NCBI GenBank assembly: GCA_947479085.1
Contig: CANJYB010000027.1
Location: 1 to 56,690 of the forward strand
Direction of reading: 5' to 3'
DNA length: 56,690 nucleotides
Origin: Bacteroidota bacterium
GTDB lineage: Bacteria; Bacteroidota; Bacteroidia; 2-12-FULL-35-15
Part shown: positions 3,165-45,923 of the stretch, in pieces
How the letters are laid out: each line of letters begins with the position of its first letter
How positions within the stretch are numbered: position 1 is the first letter of the stretch
Notes under the pieces: generated by a model
Databases searched by the model: none
Told to the model about the DNA's origin: nothing
Seen by the model: only the letters and a program-made list of their open reading frames with translations
Program-made: the position numbers and the translations under genes

Positions 3165-3362
3165 TCAAAATCCCTAAACCCCTCTTTCTTACTTTTTTCG
3201 TAGTCGAGCACTTTTTTCGAAAAAAACACCTCATTTTCAACAAAAGTGACCTCGTTTTTGGCAAAAATACGGTCACTTTTACTGTTTTTTACTTTTTCAG
3301 TTCTCGTATATTTTTCATTGCTTAGCATGCATTTCTCCATTTGGGCTTTGTATGTTATAAAA

Positions 3363-3572
3363 AGTACAAAACACAGTGCACTTAGTATTTTATATAACAT
3401 ATAAAGTACTTTATGTAACATATAAAATACTAAGTGCAGTGCATTTAGTACCTTTTATAGCATATAAAGTACTTTATGTAACATATAAAGTACAAAACAC
3501 AGTGCATTTAGTACAAAGTACAGTGCATTTAGTACTTTATATAACATATAAAGTACTTACGGAGATATGTAA
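3363..3572. repeat. 21-bp-period repeat array (about 10 units)
   Basis: Units start with agtac/aatac at 3363, 3384, 3405, 3426, 3447, 3468, 3489, 3510, 3531 and 3552, exactly 21 bases apart. Two unit types alternate irregularly: one ends in ...aacatataa and the other in ...cagtgcattt. Both strands are open across it and read as 7-residue repeats, but neither encodes a credible protein. On the minus strand the region next to it (about 3190-3300) also reads as heptads (FAKNEVT, FVENEVF), so the 21-base rhythm may extend further. This fills most of the gap between 3031 and 3718; no gene is supported there. Confidence 0.85.
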
Positions 3573-14861: not shown

Positions 14862-17120
14862 TTACTCTTCCTCATTAAATTTCTCCTCTCCGCTTTCCGT
14901 TTCCTTATCATACTTATCACAATTCATTTCGATTTCTATTTTCTTAGCCGGCTTTTCAAAATCACCTTTCGAAATTTTTATGGTCTTATCAGCATATACC
15001 TTCTGCATGTATTTTGCAAATATCGGCAATGCCATACTTGCTCCTTGTCCCTGGTCGGTACTGTTAAAATGTACCGAACGATCTTCAGCACCCACCCAAC
15101 ATCCCGAAACCAAATCCGGAGTAATTCCCATAAACCACCCATCCGAATTATTTTGTGTCGTTCCGGTTTTACCCGCCATCGGATTTTCTAATTTATACCT
15201 GAAACGTAGTCGCGCCCCTGTTCCGGAAGTGACAACTCCCTTCATTAACTGCAACATTATATAGGCCTTCTCTTCACTCATTACCTCTTCCGTTTTTGGA
15301 TTAAAATCCGCCAACACCTTCCCGTTCTTATCTTCTATCCTGGTGATAAATGTAGGTTGTATCCAGGTGCCTTTATTTGCAAACGTTGCATTTGCCCCTG
15401 TCATTTCAAACACAGATATTTCGGGAGTACCCAAACAAATAGAAGGAACAGCTTCTATCGGACTAACAATACCCATCTTTCTTGCAAGTGTTACCACCGC
15501 CTGCGGGCTAAACTGTTTTATCAAATAAGCAGAAATATAATTGAGAGAATGAGCCAACGCATATCTCAACGTAACAGGTCGCCCCTCCAATTTTTCATCT
15601 CCTGATGAATTATCCGGGCACCAGGCCGGCTGTCCTTCCGGCATATCAATGCAGGTTCTTACATTCGGCAATTTGTAACAAGGAGAATACCCTTCCTGTA
15701 TTGCCAATGCATAAATAAATGGTTTAAAGGTTGAACCCACCTGCCGTGAATGTCCTATCTGCACATGGTCATACTGAAAGTACTTATGGCTATTACCACC
15801 CACCCATGCTTTTATATAACCCGTTTGTGGTTCCATTGACATAAAACCGGTTTGAAGAAAACCTTTATAATATTTAATTGAATCAAAAGGAGACATCACC
15901 GTATCTATTATTCTCTTCCACGAAAAAATACTCATCGCTATCGGTGTACTGAAAATCTTTTCAATCTCCTCATCACTTGCTCCGCCTTTTTTCAAAACAC
16001 GGTAACGTTCCGAACGTTTCATTCCCTGGTGAAGAATATCTTTTATTTCTGCTTTGCTAACATTGTAGGCAAACGGAGCATTCTTTTTTTGTTTACAATC
16101 TTTATCAAAGGATGCTTGTAGTTCGGTCAGGTGTTCGGTCACTGCTTCTTCCGCATATCTTTGTAATCTCGAATCAATAGTGGTATAGAGTTTCAGTCCG
16201 TCACGGTAAACATCGTATTTGCTTCCATCGGGTTTCAGATTTTCCTCACACCATTTTTTCATAAACACATCCCTGATGTATTCCCTGAAATAAGGTGCCA
16301 TTCCATCATTATGATCAGCCGGATGAAAGCTTAATACCAGCGGAATTTTTTGCAATGAGTCCAGTTGTGCATTCGTCAGATAGCCGTATTTGTTCATCTG
16401 TTGCAATACCGTATTCCTTCTTCCTTCGGATTTTAATTTAAACCGGTTCGGATTAAACATGGATGGATTCTTAGCCATACCAACCAGTACAGCAGCCTGT
16501 TCAATCCGCAGGGAATCAGGTGTGGTGCCAAAATAAATTTCTGCAGCCGATTTAATTCCAACGGCATTGTTTACAAAATCAAATTTGTTGAGGTACATCG
16601 CAATGATTTCCTGCTTGGTGTATTCGCGCTCGAGTTTTACTGCAATAATCCATTCTTTAAATTTCCTTATCACCAGTTTAAAACCATGCAAATCCTCTCG
16701 CGGGAACAGCATCTTGGCCAATTGTTGTGTAATGGTGCTTCCTCCACCACTGCTTTCGCTATGACGTAAAGCGCCAAACACGGCTCTTCCAAGTGCACGT
16801 ATATCCACCCCCGAATGGCTGTAAAATCTGGCATCCTCCGTTGCCACCAATGCATTTACCACATTTGGCGAAATGTCCTTAAACTTTACATTGGTTCTGT
16901 TTTCAGCAAAAAATTTCCCGAGTACTTTCATATCCGAAGAAAATACTTCGGTTGCCAGGTTGGTTTTCGGATTTTGCAATGCTTCTGTATCCGGCAAATC
17001 AGCAAACAGGCGAACACCCAAAACAAACAATAACAAAGAAATCATAGGCATTGTAAATAATATCCAAAACCAGATGATGAATCTTTTTTTCTTTTTATTG
17101 TCTTCCTTTTCTTTAACCAT
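14862..17120 (-). CDS. Penicillin-binding protein 1A, bifunctional
   Basis: A 752-residue class A PBP that polymerises and cross-links peptidoglycan at the inner membrane. After a short Lys-rich tail and one membrane anchor (about 13-35) comes the GT51 transglycosylase, with EDARFYSHSGVD (catalytic Glu about 93) and GGGSTITQQLAKML. The transpeptidase has GSTFKPF (SxxK), SLN and KTGTT. A C-terminal tail rich in Glu and Lys ends the protein. Order holB-ricT-gldH-PBP1A is conserved in Bacteroidota; here the GxxExxY cassette sits between gldH and this gene, ending 27 bases before its start codon. Confidence 0.93.
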   Translation of the reverse strand: MVKEKEDNKKKKRFIIWFWILFTMPMISLLLFVLGVRLFADLPDTEALQNPKTNLATEVFSSDMKVLGKFFAENRTNVKFKDISPNVVNALVATEDARFYSHSGVDIRALGRAVFGALRHSESSGGGSTITQQLAKMLFPREDLHGFKLVIRKFKEWIIAVKLEREYTKQEIIAMYLNKFDFVNNAVGIKSAAEIYFGTTPDSLRIEQAAVLVGMAKNPSMFNPNRFKLKSEGRRNTVLQQMNKYGYLTNAQLDSLQKIPLVLSFHPADHNDGMAPYFREYIRDVFMKKWCEENLKPDGSKYDVYRDGLKLYTTIDSRLQRYAEEAVTEHLTELQASFDKDCKQKKNAPFAYNVSKAEIKDILHQGMKRSERYRVLKKGGASDEEIEKIFSTPIAMSIFSWKRIIDTVMSPFDSIKYYKGFLQTGFMSMEPQTGYIKAWVGGNSHKYFQYDHVQIGHSRQVGSTFKPFIYALAIQEGYSPCYKLPNVRTCIDMPEGQPAWCPDNSSGDEKLEGRPVTLRYALAHSLNYISAYLIKQFSPQAVVTLARKMGIVSPIEAVPSICLGTPEISVFEMTGANATFANKGTWIQPTFITRIEDKNGKVLADFNPKTEEVMSEEKAYIMLQLMKGVVTSGTGARLRFRYKLENPMAGKTGTTQNNSDGWFMGITPDLVSGCWVGAEDRSVHFNSTDQGQGASMALPIFAKYMQKVYADKTIKISKGDFEKPAKKIEIEMNCDKYDKETESGEEKFNEEE

Positions 17121-17146
17121 TATCAGTTGTAATTTTTTTTTCTTTT

Positions 17147-17183
17147 ACCACATAGCCACATAGAAACATAGAAAAACACATAG
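17147..17183 (-). repeat. 37-bp repeat, left copy bracketing the GxxExxY gene
   Basis: Its reverse complement matches the copy at 17606-17642 at 35 of 37 positions. It ends one base short of the stop codon of the GxxExxY gene. The unit is built from ctatgtg-type 7-8-nt words. Confidence 0.9.
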
Positions 17184-17184
17184 A

Positions 17185-17601
17185 TTAAATTTTAGGTAAT
17201 GCTGAATAATATTCATTTACTAATGTTTTTTGTCCTTCTTTGAAAATGTTTGTACAATTAAAATTAATAATTATTCCCTTAGGTTTGGCTAACATTCTCA
17301 TATATGTTAACAATACTGCTTCGTAAACAGGAATAATAAGTTCAGTTGATTTCAACTCTACAATGATAAGATTTTCAACGAGAATATCGTATCTTAATTC
17401 AGCCTCCACTTTTATTTCTTTATACTCAAGTGGTACTTTTTGCTGAGACATACACTGAAGACCGATTAACCGAAGTTCATAAACCAAACATTTTTCATAA
17501 ACACTTTCTAACAATCCGGGACCAAGGTTCTTGTGAACTTCAATTGCACATCCAATTATTTTATAACTAAGTTCATCTATATATTTCTGCGTAACAATCA
17601 A
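17185..17601 (-). CDS. GxxExxY family protein (PD-(D/E)XK nuclease-like), cassette
   Basis: A 138-residue protein with the family name motif GPGLLESVYEKCL (about residues 28-40) after IIGCAIEVHKNL. The segment LRYDILVENLIIVELKS, with its conserved Asp and Glu-Leu-Lys, resembles a PD-(D/E)XK nuclease core. The biological role of the family is not established. The only in-frame start is TTG at 17599-17601, which matches where relatives begin; an upstream ATG is lacking. The gene is bracketed by inverted 37-bp repeats, one base after its stop and four bases before its start, and lies between gldH and PBP1A, which are usually neighbours. This strongly suggests a mobile or recently inserted cassette. 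Confidence 0.85.
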   Translation of the reverse strand: MIVTQKYIDELSYKIIGCAIEVHKNLGPGLLESVYEKCLVYELRLIGLQCMSQQKVPLEYKEIKVEAELRYDILVENLIIVELKSTELIIPVYEAVLLTYMRMLAKPKGIIINFNCTNIFKEGQKTLVNEYYSALPKI

Positions 17602-17605
17602 TTTA

Positions 17606-17642
17606 CTATGTGTTTTCCTATGTTTCTATGTGCCTATGTGGT
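17606..17642 (+). repeat. 37-bp repeat, right copy bracketing the GxxExxY gene
   Basis: An inverted partner of 17147-17183 (35/37). It is identical over all 37 bases to the solo copy at 24952-24988. It begins four bases upstream of the TTG start, so it forms the whole translation-initiation region of the gene. Confidence 0.9.
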
Positions 17643-17648
17643 GAAGTA

Positions 17649-18128
17649 CTATTCTGCTTTTGCAATCCTTAACCCCACATCCATTATCAGCAGCACAGGG
17701 TCTATTCTCATCCCGTGTTGTATTTCAAACTTGTAAGTTCCAGCCTGCGGGAAACGAACATTTCGTTTAAATAATATCTGGTTGTCATAAATATCTCCCA
17801 GCCCGCTTCCGAGCCATTTCCCTTTTTCATCCGCCAACACACATTCCAATGTGTCGTTCGACATTTTTCCATTCGGGAAAGTAGTTTTGATAAACAAATA
17901 TAAATTGCTAAATGGATATCCATCCGCATTGCGCACATTGATATAAAAATTAGTGGGAGTAGCAGGGTCCTTAATATCCACATCAAACTTTACCACATTG
18001 TCTTTCTTCCATCCGGCCTCCGGAATATCCTGGTTTTTCTCAAAAATGCGCGCGCGGTCGCAAGATGAAAGAAACGAAACAGAAAGCAACAGGAGAAACG
18101 TAAAATAATTAATAGTCGTCTTATACAT
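17649..18128 (-). CDS. gldH: Gliding motility lipoprotein GldH
   Basis: A 159-residue lipoprotein with a signal peptide ending in the lipobox LSSC (Cys23). The body begins DRARIFEKNQDIPEAGW and contains the GldH-type VDIKDPATPTNFYINVRNADGYPFSNLYLFI stretch and GSGLGDIYDN. GldH is needed for gliding and for type IX secretion component function in Flavobacterium johnsoniae; how it acts is not known in detail. Six bases separate the ricT stop from this gene's start, so they are cotranscribed. The T9SS substrate at 43499 fits with a working T9SS. Confidence 0.88.
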   Translation of the reverse strand: MYKTTINYFTFLLLLSVSFLSSCDRARIFEKNQDIPEAGWKKDNVVKFDVDIKDPATPTNFYINVRNADGYPFSNLYLFIKTTFPNGKMSNDTLECVLADEKGKWLGSGLGDIYDNQILFKRNVRFPQAGTYKFEIQHGMRIDPVLLIMDVGLRIAKAE

Positions 18129-22824: not shown

Positions 22825-23199
22825 TCCAGGAGTGGATTAAATTGAACAATAAAACAATAAGTCAGGACACAAACCATATCCCGGTTTCATTCTAAAAACC
22901 CGTCATTCTACTGAGAATAGCGGGGCATGCGCACGCTTTTAAAGGATTTGATTTAAACTATAGAGGGTAAAGTTGTATTCAAAATAATAGAGTTTTAGTG
23001 AGTACTATTTTTCATGCTTCTAAATATATAGACGCAGGCGGAGGTGAAAAGGTTGCATGCTCTCGAAAAAATAAATTCATTCATTATAATAGAGTACAAA
23101 AATGCCGTTTTCCCAAATCATTCTTCCCCAACCAAACCCCTCTTCTTTGATAATACAAATCCACTTTCCGAAATGCCAAATCCAAACCATTCCCCTCAA

Positions 23200-23475
23200 A
23201 ATAATTTCCATAAAATACCAAACGAGTGCCTTGAAATGGTAAATGACTTCCTCGCGAAACCAAATGACATCCATGAAATACCAAATGACGTTCGTGAAAA
23301 ACAGGATGACATTCAAAATATGCCAACGTATTTCATGAAAAACCAAATGACTGCCTCGCGAAACCAAATGACTGCCTCGCGAAATGAAATGACAACCTCG
23401 CGAAACCAAATGACTTCCATGAAATACCAAACGACAACCGTGAAAAACAGGATGACTTCCTCGCGAAACACTTGG
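23200..23475. repeat. 21-bp-period array, cctcgcgaaa/ccatgaaat units
   Basis: About twelve degenerate units with the shape nccaaatgac-ttcctcgcgaa recur every 21 bases (clearest at 23342, 23363, 23384, 23405, 23426 and 23447). One step near 23280-23342 is 62 rather than 63 bases, so the array changes register with respect to any reading frame. The forward frame reads MTASRNQ-type heptads but this is probably not a real protein. Confidence 0.8.
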
Positions 23476-24574: not shown

Positions 24575-24901
24575 TCACACCACCTTCTCAAACTTCAATT
24601 GCCATTTCTCCTGATGATCTTTCTTTCCCGGATTTTTAAACTCACCAAACACCATTTCCATTTCATTTGCAGATAAAACATAAAACCTCGGTTCAGCTTT
24701 AAAACACAGGTAATCTTCATCCCAATCAGCAGCAGCATCAAACGAAATTTTATACTTCCGCTCATCATTTACAAATAGCAGCAGATTAACCTCTTTCGCA
24801 TTAATCGTAATCTTCCCATTATAATTAGGAAACAGTTTATTGGGAATACTTTTCCATGAAGCCTGAAGCGAGCTTTCAGTTAATTGTTTGGTTTTGTCCA
24901 T
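24575..24901 (-). CDS. Unknown 108-residue soluble protein
   Basis: A small acidic protein with no signal peptide or membrane segment; I recognise no family. It reads as a probable beta-rich fold (KITINAKEVNLLLFV, YKISFDAAADWDEDYLCF, RFYVLSANEMEMVFGEF). It starts with ATG; the solo 37-bp repeat copy is 51 bases upstream. It is convergent with the gene at 23974. Confidence 0.55.
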   Translation of the reverse strand: MDKTKQLTESSLQASWKSIPNKLFPNYNGKITINAKEVNLLLFVNDERKYKISFDAAADWDEDYLCFKAEPRFYVLSANEMEMVFGEFKNPGKKDHQEKWQLKFEKVV

Positions 24902-24951: not shown

Positions 24952-24988
24952 CTATGTGTTTTCCTATGTTTCTATGTGCCTATGTGGT
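24952..24988 (+). repeat. 37-bp repeat, solo copy
   Basis: Identical over all 37 bases to the copy at 17606-17642, but with no GxxExxY gene beside it. It lies between two divergent genes (24901 and 25096). Confidence 0.9.
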
Positions 24989-25095: not shown

Positions 25096-26775
25096 ATGGA
25101 GAAGAAATTTATTATTCCAAAAGGAGTTCGCATAGCATGTTACATTCTGTTATTTTTTATTGGCCTGTTTGCATGCGCTGCTATTTATGTAAATGTGTAT
25201 CTTGATAAAAAAGTAATTGAATTTTTAGAACAACGTGTATCCGAATCTACCCATGGGGAATATGCTTTATCGGTAGATAATTTTACAGTTCAGTTGCTGG
25301 CGCAAAATATTGTAATAACTAACCTGGTGGTGGCACCCACTGGCAAGGCAGCACCAGGCAGGGTGCAATATGTTTTTAAGGCAGCTACTATTAAATTTAT
25401 CGGCTTCTCCATTTTTTCTTATTTGAAAAATAATAACCTGATGATAAACAGGGTAGAGGTGGAAAAGCCGGAAATTTCGATATTCCAGGGAAAGGAGCGG
25501 TTGCAAAACAAAATAAGTGATATTGATGCTCCACGGTTTTCCATATATGCCATGTTTTCAAAAAAACTTAATTCGGTTTCCATCGGCCAGATAGATATTA
25601 TCAATTCGCGCTTCACTATCTATAAAAGTAGTACAGATACACTTCCTGTTTTTTGTACCAATGAGAATACCATGTCTATTAAAAATTTTAATATTAATGC
25701 ACTTACAGATAAAAACAAAAGTTTGTTTGATGCTGAAAAAATGGAGATGGTGATGAATAAATTTTCGTATCACCTGGATAATGGATTATACACCATGTAT
25801 GGCAACAGCCTTCATGTGTCGTATCTCGATTCGTTGTTAACCATCGATTCGTTGCAACTGGTGCCTATTTTCAGTAAAAAGGAATTTGCAACGGAAGCTG
25901 GGAGACAAGTAAGCCGGGTAAAAATAATAGCCGCCAAAGTGGAAATGCAAAAGATGGATGTTAAACTGTTTTTTGAATACAACTGGCTGGTGATACATAA
26001 AGTGGAGTTAGATGGATGCCTTATAGATGTGTTTCGCGACAATACATTAGCGCTTGCTCCCATTGTTCGTCCGTCCGTTCAGGCAATGATAAAAGACCTG
26101 CCGTTTTTTGTAAAGATAGATACCGTTGAAATGAAAAATGGCGAAACTGTTTTTCAGATGCGTAATCCGGGCCAAGATATGGCGGGAAAAATAACAGTAA
26201 CCAATATGAATGTAACCATTACGGGAGTGCAAAATGATACTACGTTGTATTCCGACAAAAGCAGCATCATTGCCAAAGTAACAGGAAAGCTTTTGAATGA
26301 AAGTAAGTTTAATTTAAACTATATCTTTCCGCTAAAGGCCCGGAAAGAATTCTTTTATTGCTCGGGAAGTTTAGCAGCTATGGATATGACCGTATTCAAC
26401 CCGTTAACACAAAATGTAAAACACCTGCTAATTAAAAGTGGTAAATTAGATTCTGCAAGTTTTGCTTTTACAGCAGGCGAGTTTACCAGCAGTGGCACCA
26501 TGAAAGTTATTTATCACGACCTGGATGTAGAGGTTATGAATAAGGAAGGAGAAACAAGTAAATTAAAAGAAAAGATACGAACCATGGTAGTGAATGCCTT
26601 GATAGTTAAAGACAGCAATCCGGGTAAAGACAATGTGGTAAGAATTTCTCCCATTCATGCGGAGCACAATCCTTATCGTTTTTTTATGAATTACTCAGTA
26701 CAGTCCATACTCAGCGGAATAGCACCATCTATGGTGAATGAAAAAAGGGTACGGATGTTTAAAAAGAATAAATAA
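25096..26775 (+). CDS. AsmA-like/DUF748-type membrane-anchored protein
   Basis: A 559-residue protein with one N-terminal membrane anchor (about 11-33) and a large periplasmic domain. The region after the anchor (YVNVYLDKKVIEFLEQRVSESTHGEYALSVDNFTVQL) and repeated short beta-strand patterns resemble AsmA-like proteins. Such proteins are linked to outer-membrane lipid or protein assembly, and several related ones form hydrophobic grooves across the periplasm. The assignment is by pattern, not a strong motif match. It is followed, across a composite palindrome, by a PagL-like gene that also acts at the outer membrane. Confidence 0.5.
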   Translation: MEKKFIIPKGVRIACYILLFFIGLFACAAIYVNVYLDKKVIEFLEQRVSESTHGEYALSVDNFTVQLLAQNIVITNLVVAPTGKAAPGRVQYVFKAATIKFIGFSIFSYLKNNNLMINRVEVEKPEISIFQGKERLQNKISDIDAPRFSIYAMFSKKLNSVSIGQIDIINSRFTIYKSSTDTLPVFCTNENTMSIKNFNINALTDKNKSLFDAEKMEMVMNKFSYHLDNGLYTMYGNSLHVSYLDSLLTIDSLQLVPIFSKKEFATEAGRQVSRVKIIAAKVEMQKMDVKLFFEYNWLVIHKVELDGCLIDVFRDNTLALAPIVRPSVQAMIKDLPFFVKIDTVEMKNGETVFQMRNPGQDMAGKITVTNMNVTITGVQNDTTLYSDKSSIIAKVTGKLLNESKFNLNYIFPLKARKEFFYCSGSLAAMDMTVFNPLTQNVKHLLIKSGKLDSASFAFTAGEFTSSGTMKVIYHDLDVEVMNKEGETSKLKEKIRTMVVNALIVKDSNPGKDNVVRISPIHAEHNPYRFFMNYSVQSILSGIAPSMVNEKRVRMFKKNK

Positions 26776-42666: not shown

Positions 42667-43094
42667 TTTTTTTGATTTTTGGTTTTAGTTAAACATTAGT
42701 TAATTGGCATTTTATAAGTTTAGAACAAGCTTGATTTTTAAAAATCAGTGTTGATTATTTTTAATTAGGCTTAATTTTTAAAAATCAGTGCTAATTATTT
42801 TTAAACAAGCTTAATTTTTGAAAATCAATGCTGATTATTTTTAATTAAGCTTAATTTTAAAAAATCAGTGCTAATTATTTTTAATTAAGCTTAATTTTTA
42901 AAAATCAGTACTAATTATTTTTAAACAAGCTTGTTTTTTAAAAAAGAAGCTTGTTTTGTTATTTATTATTCTTTTCAGGAACAAATACATTCAACGAACG
43001 AAAATCTGGGGCAAAGTAAAAATGAAAATATGGAATAAAAAAATTATTTGGAAGATTGTAGCAATTGCTACAATTTTATAAAAAAAAGGGGTTT
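42667..43094. promoter_or_regulatory. Upstream region of 42666 with TTAGTTAA pair and repeat array
   Basis: No gene is seen. It holds TTAGTTAA at 42685-42692 and 42696-42703 and the array at 42729-42968. No TAnnTTTG box in the right place and strand was found, so the promoter may differ from the standard one. Confidence 0.45.
42729..42968. repeat. 40-bp tandem array, five full units and a partial
   Basis: Units begin with gctt at 42729, 42769, 42809, 42849 and 42889 (exactly 40 bases apart), then a shortened copy from 42929. Each contains gctt(a/g)attttt, an aaaaatcagtg and a taattattttt segment. It is directly contiguous with no spacers, so it is not a CRISPR array. The 40-base period is close to four helical turns. 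Confidence 0.9.
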
Positions 43095-45176: not shown

Positions 45177-45854
45177 TTACTGACCTACCACCCCAAACTC
45201 ATACCCTTCTTCTTTAGCAAATTCAATAAATCGTGGCAGGGCGTATTCCAGTTTTTCCCTGGCTTTATTGCTATCGTGAAACAAAACAATAGAACCATTC
45301 CTTACATGCGAAGTAGTATTCGTCAGGCATTGGCGTTTCCCGGTTTTCAAGTCGTAATCGCCACTTAGTACATCCCACATAATAATTGAGTATTCAGTAT
45401 TGGGTATTGAGTATTGAGTATCGAGCACGGAGACTTTGGACTTTGGACTTTGGACTTTAGACTGAAGGATTTTAATTTGAGACTTTTTTAATTTCCCGTA
45501 AGGCGGGCGAAATAATTTTGAATCCACCAGCCGGGCACAGGTGTTCACATTTTCAATATACTTGGCAGTATCTGTATTCCATCCGTTCAGGTGGTTATAG
45601 GTATGGTTTCCCACGCCATGTCCTTCTGCCAGTATGCGTTTATATATTTCGGGATTGTTCTCTACATTATTTCCCACACAAAAAAAAGTAGCCTTTATTT
45701 CTTCCTGTTTCAGCAGGTCCAGTACCCATGGGGTAACCACCGGAATAGGTCCATCATCAAAAGTGAGGTATATTTTTTTCTGCAAAGCATCCATTCTCCA
45801 AACCGCTGCAGGGAACAGCTTTTTTATTAAATATGGAGGACGAACTAAATACAA
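45177..45854 (-). CDS. NodB-type polysaccharide deacetylase with heptamer-repeat insert
   Basis: A 225-residue NodB-homology enzyme. TFDDGP (31-36), HTYNH (84-88; metal-binding HxxxH), RPPYG (116-120), IIMWDVLSGDYD (157-168) and IVLFHDS near the end match the family. Between KILQ and IIMW about 26 residues (131-156) are inserted that the family lacks; they are encoded by (AAAGTCC)4 and (ATACTCA)5 tracts (minus strand). The motifs around the insert are intact, so the frame holds. It likely acts on an N-acetylated polysaccharide or peptidoglycan; whether the insert still allows activity is unknown. Start is ATG, 72 bases after the DUF2723 stop. Confidence 0.85.
   Translation of the reverse strand: MYLVRPPYLIKKLFPAAVWRMDALQKKIYLTFDDGPIPVVTPWVLDLLKQEEIKATFFCVGNNVENNPEIYKRILAEGHGVGNHTYNHLNGWNTDTAKYIENVNTCARLVDSKLFRPPYGKLKKSQIKILQSKVQSPKSKVSVLDTQYSIPNTEYSIIMWDVLSGDYDLKTGKRQCLTNTTSHVRNGSIVLFHDSNKAREKLEYALPRFIEFAKEEGYEFGVVGQ
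45387..45464 (-). repeat. Two heptanucleotide tracts inside the deacetylase CDS
   Basis: On the minus strand, AAAGTCC repeats about four times and is followed by ATACTCA-type units repeating about five times (with point changes). Seven is not a multiple of three, so gain or loss of one unit would shift the frame. Confidence 0.85.
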
Positions 45855-45864
45855 AGGAGTTATA

Positions 45865-45923
45865 AATTATGAGTTATGAATTATGAGTTGACATTCATAA
45901 CTCATAATTCATAACTCATAATT
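45865..45923. repeat. Perfect 25-bp-arm hairpin between two minus-strand genes
   Basis: Arms 45865-45889 and 45899-45923 are perfectly complementary around a 9-nt loop. The arms are made of attatga/gttatga heptamers. It lies 3 bases after the DUF2723 stop and 10 before the deacetylase start, so it may attenuate read-through. Confidence 0.8.

Follow-up and report, generated by a model that had tools for sequence, protein, structure and literature searches.

The closest described parallel to the locus reported here is provided by RAYTs, whose genes lie between inverted REPs; coevolution and correlated copy number of gene and repeat have been described, and the enzyme resembles that of IS200/IS605 elements (PMC2817692). 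Extragenic inverted doublets of such repeats are known as REPINs (PMC3116915). In the relevant part of a further account, REP clusters and inverted dimers of both orders are given as common and direct REP dimers as absent or rare in most genomes, and CGTC-tagged REPs, some of them in Bacteroidetes, are mentioned as having no known transposase (PMC3733652).

Here, we have analysed a gene of the GxxExxY or PDDEXK_3 family (TIGR04256, PF13366) that lies between two inverted repeats, referred to as arms. The gene is a clear member of this family, whose description gives no function, and no link between GxxExxY and repeats was found in the open-access full-text literature searched.

The arm-gene-arm unit and its insertion site

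The window is the whole stretch of DNA that was analysed, i.e., 56,690 nucleotides from a Bacteroidota bacterium (assembly GCA_947479085.1, contig CANJYB010000027.1, positions 1 to 56,690). The GxxExxY gene (17185-17601, reverse strand) has a TTG start and encodes 138 aa. It is enclosed by a downstream arm (17144-17183), which reads from its outer to its inner end on the forward strand, and an upstream arm in inverted orientation (17606-17645, reverse strand). Four word copies are present in each arm; those of the downstream arm are CACATAG at 17149-17155, 17157-17163 and 17177-17183 and AACATAG at 17165-17171. A preliminary description, made from the sequence alone, had reported inverted copies at 17147-17183 (+) and 17606-17642 (-), and these core arms were recovered at the same coordinates with 35 of 37 positions matching; in their extended form, the arms are 40 nt long, 93% complementary and 422 nt apart. 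The tight bracketing reported there, with one base between the stop codon and one arm and four bases between the other arm and the TTG, was also confirmed, as was a third, solo copy (24952-24988, reverse strand) that is identical to the upstream, right-hand arm over all 37 bases and lies between ORFs 24575-24901 (-) and 25096-26775 (+). Three arm matches were observed in the window versus none in shuffled windows, and no Rfam match was found between 14000 and 28000.

The window protein scores 127.4 bits against the TIGR04256 GxxExxY model (cut-off 35) and 121.2 bits against PF13366 PDDEXK_3 (cut-off 22). No other NCBIfam or Pfam family matches it at an E value of 0.001, and its gene is the only one found between the arms. 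The gene and its arms appear to form one unit.

The complete unit (17144-17645, reverse strand) is placed between gldH (17649-18128, reverse strand) and a PBP1A family gene (14862-17120, reverse strand), which had been said to be normally adjacent. A search of the genus found gldH in 31 of 36 genomes; 30 loci were fetched, one of which was the window's own and another of which stopped short of PBP1A and was excluded. In all 28 remaining loci, which were readable for both genes, gldH and PBP1A adjoin without a GxxExxY gene, the estimated gap ranging from -1 to 227 bases, and the unit is therefore most simply regarded as an insertion in the window's genome. No target-site duplication was evident by eye at the window site, the relatives' empty sites being too diverged to give exact ends.

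A search of the host genome for the 37-bp word, as had been proposed, returned six sites at three or fewer mismatches, and the inner 24-mer returned 11 sites (0 for the reversed-pattern control in both searches). Nine CACATAG arms were found in this genome beyond the two at the GxxExxY gene, including a pair that makes up an inverted doublet in the interval from the HU gene to the agmatinase gene; this doublet is absent in all six relatives with both genes on the locus, where the intergenic DNA differs widely. For the solo arm at 24952, the empty-site comparison found a flanking gene in only one of eight relatives. The empty site and the repeat copies elsewhere in the genome support the earlier reading of a mobile-looking cassette, and neither of the two findings that had been named as refuting it, the gene standing without repeats in all relatives or the repeat being absent elsewhere, was encountered. 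Another part of that reading, the formation of solo copies by recombination, was not supported. Homologous recombination between inverted arms would be expected to invert the gene and not to remove it. Because of this, and because the dispersed copies mostly occupy places of their own and many are inverted doublets, this process is rejected as the main route to solo arms.

The GxxExxY protein

The motif residues of the window protein are G29, E32, Y35, D72, E82 and K84 (E82-x-K84). Of 144 GxxExxY genes collected from the host genome and related genomes, 139 retain the catalytic D72, E82 and K84. A structural model (pLDDT 95.9), which was built from 51 sequences comprising the window's own and 50 of 80 loci from named genomes, has a PD-(D/E)XK fold in which the second helix (32-45) starts with the E of GxxExxY. 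The best structural Z values were 9.4 to SSO0001, which we take to be Cas4-like, and 7.1 to Hjc, values of 7-9 being weak alone; a Foldseek search with the model returned nothing at an E value of 0.001 or below. The HUH motif was found in none of the 144 genes and none of the 80 named loci. As the named set was retrieved by a GPGLLESVY pattern, its G29, E32 and Y35 are conserved by construction.

Inverted arms across the GxxExxY family

The 144 GxxExxY genes were fetched from the window's genome and relatives in one class, and were taken from the matches listed, so that weak copies are under-sampled. The arm score is the best inverted match between the upstream and downstream flanks of a gene, scores of at least 16 being considered strong. 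Among 142 usable genes, 108 have inverted arms at this threshold and 82 at a score of at least 20, with strong arms missing in 34. When flanks were mismatched, scores of at least 16 were rare, at 2.7% for 664 pairs taken within genomes and 2.5% for 1500 pairs sampled between genomes, and the direct-orientation control, based on the own flanks of GxxExxY genes, gave 12% at score 16. With the GxxExxY gene itself left out, inverted arms were found at none of 42 other ORFs in the window and none of 50 in the gldH loci. In the named genomes, 45 of 80 GxxExxY loci passed the arm test versus 4.7% of 1500 mismatched pairs; the record titles are mostly those of Bacteroidota, and the passing loci include Pyrinomonadaceae, Ignavibacteriaceae, Lysobacterales and Niveibacterium. 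Inverted arms are the rule for the GxxExxY family and not an oddity of the window.

Carriage by phages or other viruses was also considered and was rejected. Phages gave no match to GxxExxY, 105 pattern matches in viral contigs yielded no confirmed relative, and only eight plasmid records matched, every one below 60% identity.

Arm words, protein clades and conservation

An arm typically consists of three or four tandem words (two in some arms) of 6-8 letters, with spacings of approximately 7-13 as judged by eye. The words vary from gene to gene: CACATAG is used in the window, and CACAGAG, CGCAAAG, CACTAAG, CACAGAT, ACGAAT, CATTAAG and others are found elsewhere. A list of 16 word classes, which was drawn up after the arms had been seen, labelled 114 of 116 arms at a score of at least 14. 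On a protein tree of 109 members, from which domains shorter than 95 aa were left out, the words change 32 times, compared with 75-85 times in 100 shuffles (mean 80). Host-genome labels carry no signal on the same tree (92 changes versus a shuffle mean of 90.6), and each of ten genomes contains at least four word classes. The word tracks the protein clade and not the host. The window's CACATAG clade comprises six members with 98% support, one of which comes from another family. Two genes of one genome that are 92% alike (L141 and L143) have different words, CACAAAG and CGCAAAG, respectively. A screen for protein residues responsible for word reading had just three independent pairs per test, too few to have any power.

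In 16 orthologous pairs, the arms are approximately 91% identical and the third positions of unchanged codons 48%. These pairs were picked by hand from 101 and have DNA alignments extending more than 800 bases beyond both ends; other such pairs, most of which have weak arms or come from identical records, were left out. The between-class baseline for arms with the same aligner is as high as 69% because of its free end gaps. The difference between arms and third positions suggests that selection most likely maintains the arms along with the protein, and the conservation of arms at fixed sites implies that the unit is not just a transient insertion.

The word arms have no internal palindrome, with a median self-palindrome z of -0.7 (n=82). 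Between the upstream and downstream arms of the 108 genes, transition differences are asymmetric (110 versus 69), in the direction opposite to that preferred by a transcript stem.

Movement of the unit and dispersed arms

For two genes of one genome that are 94% alike (L142 and L146), the shared DNA begins just beyond one arm and ends just beyond the other. In a pair from different families (L018 and L024), homology likewise ends just outside both arms. Homology that is confined approximately to the arm-to-arm segment at different sites is good evidence that arm, gene and arm travel as a unit, and the many units that are orthologous between species indicate that such movement seems to be rare.

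Dispersed word arms are abundant in several genomes in which a gene of the same word class is present. In a search of 11 genomes, 40 and 37 CATTAAG arms were found in two Flavobacterium genomes that have a gene of this class; two further genomes had 6 and 1, and the other seven, which include Chryseobacterium genomes whose genes have CATTAAG-like arms, had 0. For CACTAAA, three genomes had 110, 84 and 34 arms, and none was found in the window's genome. The genome with 110 (G031) has two genes of that class, and the one with 84 (G029) has no matching gene among the four that were read of its seven GxxExxY genes. Similarly, none of the seven GxxExxY genes of G009 belongs to the class of its 36 CACTAAG arms, and the largest number of CACTAAG arms (61) occurs in a member of the genus (G043) that lies outside the GxxExxY gene search. 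Reversed-pattern controls for the dispersed word arms gave 0-2. Five genomes that have a gene of the CACTAAG class contain more CACTAAG copies than 20 genomes that lack one (p=0.003), and for the window's CACATAG the relation is not significant (p=0.12); both p-values are limited to the genes that were fetched and come from incomplete genomes.

We also collected 86 arm-site loci, which are the best matches of three word searches and represent 77 distinct places. As many as 82 of the 86 lie outside ORFs, whereas only 16-24% of that DNA is intergenic. Nine of the 77 places are within 700 bases of a GxxExxY gene (seven for CATTAAG and one for each other word). A partner arm is present within 160 bp at 49 places, and the nearest partner is inverted in all 49. 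Under strict criteria, close neighbours among the matches listed comprise 21 inverted and nine direct cases, which indicates that tandem clusters exist too and not inverted doublets alone. Rather than products of solo formation, the dispersed arms seem to be small independent elements.

Some further features of these copies were observed. Among the matches listed, direct repeats of word arms 75-160 bp apart, i.e., tandem clusters, occur in G043, G053, G052, G059 and G005. In the CACTAAA doublets of G029 and G038 (L374-L403), the order of the arms is mostly opposite to the usual one, with the outer ends facing each other. Many of the G029 copies look nearly identical, as if recently spread.

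Flanking repeats at other gene families

Ten genomes with word arms were examined for Y1_Tnp, and matches are present in all ten. The Y1_Tnp set comprised 30 loci (L404-L433). Gene placement was poor in two of them, where the ORFs have 42 and 12 codons, and one locus is below the family cut-off. Strong inverted repeats were found at 17 of the 30, many being palindromic as expected for REPs, and none of the four word arms searched for was detected near the Y1_Tnp genes of any of the 30. The median self-palindrome z of 13 Y1_Tnp arms is 2.0, compared with the negative value given above for the 82 word arms, and the direct-tandem z is 3.1 for word arms versus -0.5 for Y1_Tnp arms. Since the arm test recovers the known RAYT layout at Y1_Tnp loci, the GxxExxY system appears to be separate from RAYTs. 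The possibility that the word arms are ordinary RAYT repeats was considered and is not supported, as the Y1_Tnp loci have different repeats of their own.

The four-helix-bundle genes of TIGR02436 were examined in the relatives as well (L344-L373; 30 loci fetched, 25 usable). Inverted arrays of tandem words were found at 17 of the 25 usable loci, and 33 of 600 mismatched pairs passed the same test. Their words are heptad-like and of a different kind from those of GxxExxY, e.g., TTTGAGATATGAGA and GGTTCTA. The same layout at these loci suggests that genes paired with repeats of their own form a more varied group than RAYTs alone would indicate.

The window contains several other repeats. An inverted doublet of heptad words (45857-45923; arms of 25 nt, 100% complementary, loop of 9 nt) has a deacetylase-like ORF on one side and a large membrane-protein-like ORF on the other, both named by eye, and resembles the four-helix-bundle kind of word. 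The deacetylase-like ORF itself contains two heptad arrays, ATTGAGT and GACTTTG (45385-45463), whose translation is a repeat-like stretch. Tandem arrays are found at 23199-23463 (21 bp units, open on both strands), 3357-3556 (63 bp) and 42727-42944 (40 bp).

Proposed mechanism and alternative explanations

We consider it rather probable that GxxExxY is a PD-(D/E)XK nuclease accompanied by its own recognition repeats, resembling RAYT/REP in working but assembled from unrelated parts. On the sequence evidence, recognition of the words by the protein is strongly implied by the coupling of word and clade, and GxxExxY is most likely also what cuts and moves the arms. Several GxxExxY monomers may bind the tandem words of one arm, and the two inverted arms could then meet, possibly in a hairpin or cruciform structure, given that the model resembles the Cas4-like and Hjc folds. 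The protein would nick or cut at the paired or folded arms, and repair or copying might then carry the doublet, and occasionally the complete unit, into the DNA between genes. In addition, GxxExxY might regulate itself through the arm that immediately precedes the start codon.

It is also conceivable, if unlikely, that the words are operators, with GxxExxY binding only to regulate itself and nearby genes and the units being moved by other machinery or by ordinary recombination. One arm in the window does lie 4 bp before the start codon, an arm end is close to a possible start codon in many loci, and arms are conserved at orthologous sites, all of which fit regulation. However, operators would explain neither the inverted arm past the stop codon, nor unit homology that ends at about both arms, nor the dispersed intergenic inverted doublets, and the near invariance of the catalytic residues also argues against a purely regulatory protein. 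Much the same low probability is assigned to arms that serve as cassette ends for some other mobilising enzyme, for example a Y1 transposase of the RAYT/IS200 type, with GxxExxY as mere cargo. The Y1_Tnp matches in all ten genomes examined are compatible with such a mover, as are the four-helix-bundle genes that share the layout but use other words; nevertheless, 17 of the 30 Y1_Tnp loci were found with inverted repeats of their own and none with the searched word arms, and a single shared mover should yield one word per genome, whereas the words follow the GxxExxY clade.

A role of the arms as RNA, in which a transcript stem would serve protection, termination or control and the dispersed doublets would be terminators, is quite improbable. 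The sampled doublets are indeed inverted and intergenic, but differences between arms do not favour G-U pairs (69 favouring, 110 not), the arms are strongly tandem without an internal palindrome, and Rfam gave no match in the part of the window around the unit. Least probable of all is an ordinary IS or MITE of a known family, or chance repetition: terminal inverted repeats, an empty site and small gene-less derivatives are transposon-like, but the only gene found in the unit encodes a PD-(D/E)XK protein with no match to other families at the E value used, and chance is opposed by the lack of matches in shuffles.

If the nuclease-and-repeat explanation is right, it would give a widespread protein family that lacks an assigned role its first testable one, would account for one kind of dispersed intergenic repeat in Bacteroidota, and would suggest an independent origin of the REP/RAYT lifestyle on the basis of a different nuclease fold. 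We regard it as an evenly balanced prospect that GxxExxY proteins at large are a large natural set of sequence-specific nucleases with target words at their own gene ends, driving dispersed repeats independently of RAYTs, with TIGR02436 possibly being an unrelated parallel case. As every gene has its apparent target next to it, protein-DNA specificities could be read directly from the family, which would help in learning how PD-(D/E)XK proteins choose their sequences.

Comparison with known systems

SSO0001, Hjc and lambda exonuclease have the same PD-(D/E)XK fold as the GxxExxY model, with the expected D-ExK residues, but differ in genomic setting; to our knowledge, none of them is tied to cognate repeats. 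Rpn/YhgA-like PD-(D/E)XK proteins are putative transposases that are linked to DNA movement, and their Pfam family differs from that of GxxExxY. The unit resembles IS elements and MITEs in its terminal inverted repeats, empty sites and short gene-less derivatives, whereas it differs from them in that it has no known transposase, its ends vary from gene to gene, and no target duplication is evident.

In layout, the unit matches RAYT/REP systems, as far as the sources cited at the outset describe them. A single small gene lies between two inverted repeats, both in the window and at most GxxExxY genes, and repeat and gene coevolve, as seen in the small number of word changes on the protein tree. 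As in REPINs, the cognate repeats are dispersed extragenically, often as inverted doublets, although nine of the 30 listed close neighbours are direct. Copy number is tied to the gene only in part, in that the relation is seen for CACTAAG but is not significant for CACATAG, and G009 and G029 are exceptions. On the other hand, the enzyme here is of the PD-(D/E)XK type, whereas RAYTs are HUH/Y1 enzymes related to IS200/IS605, and the arms consist of tandem words, whereas REPs are palindromes with a GTAG tag. Since the layout and the coevolution are shared but the enzyme and the palindromic repeat are not, the GxxExxY system appears to work like RAYT/REP without being a member of it.
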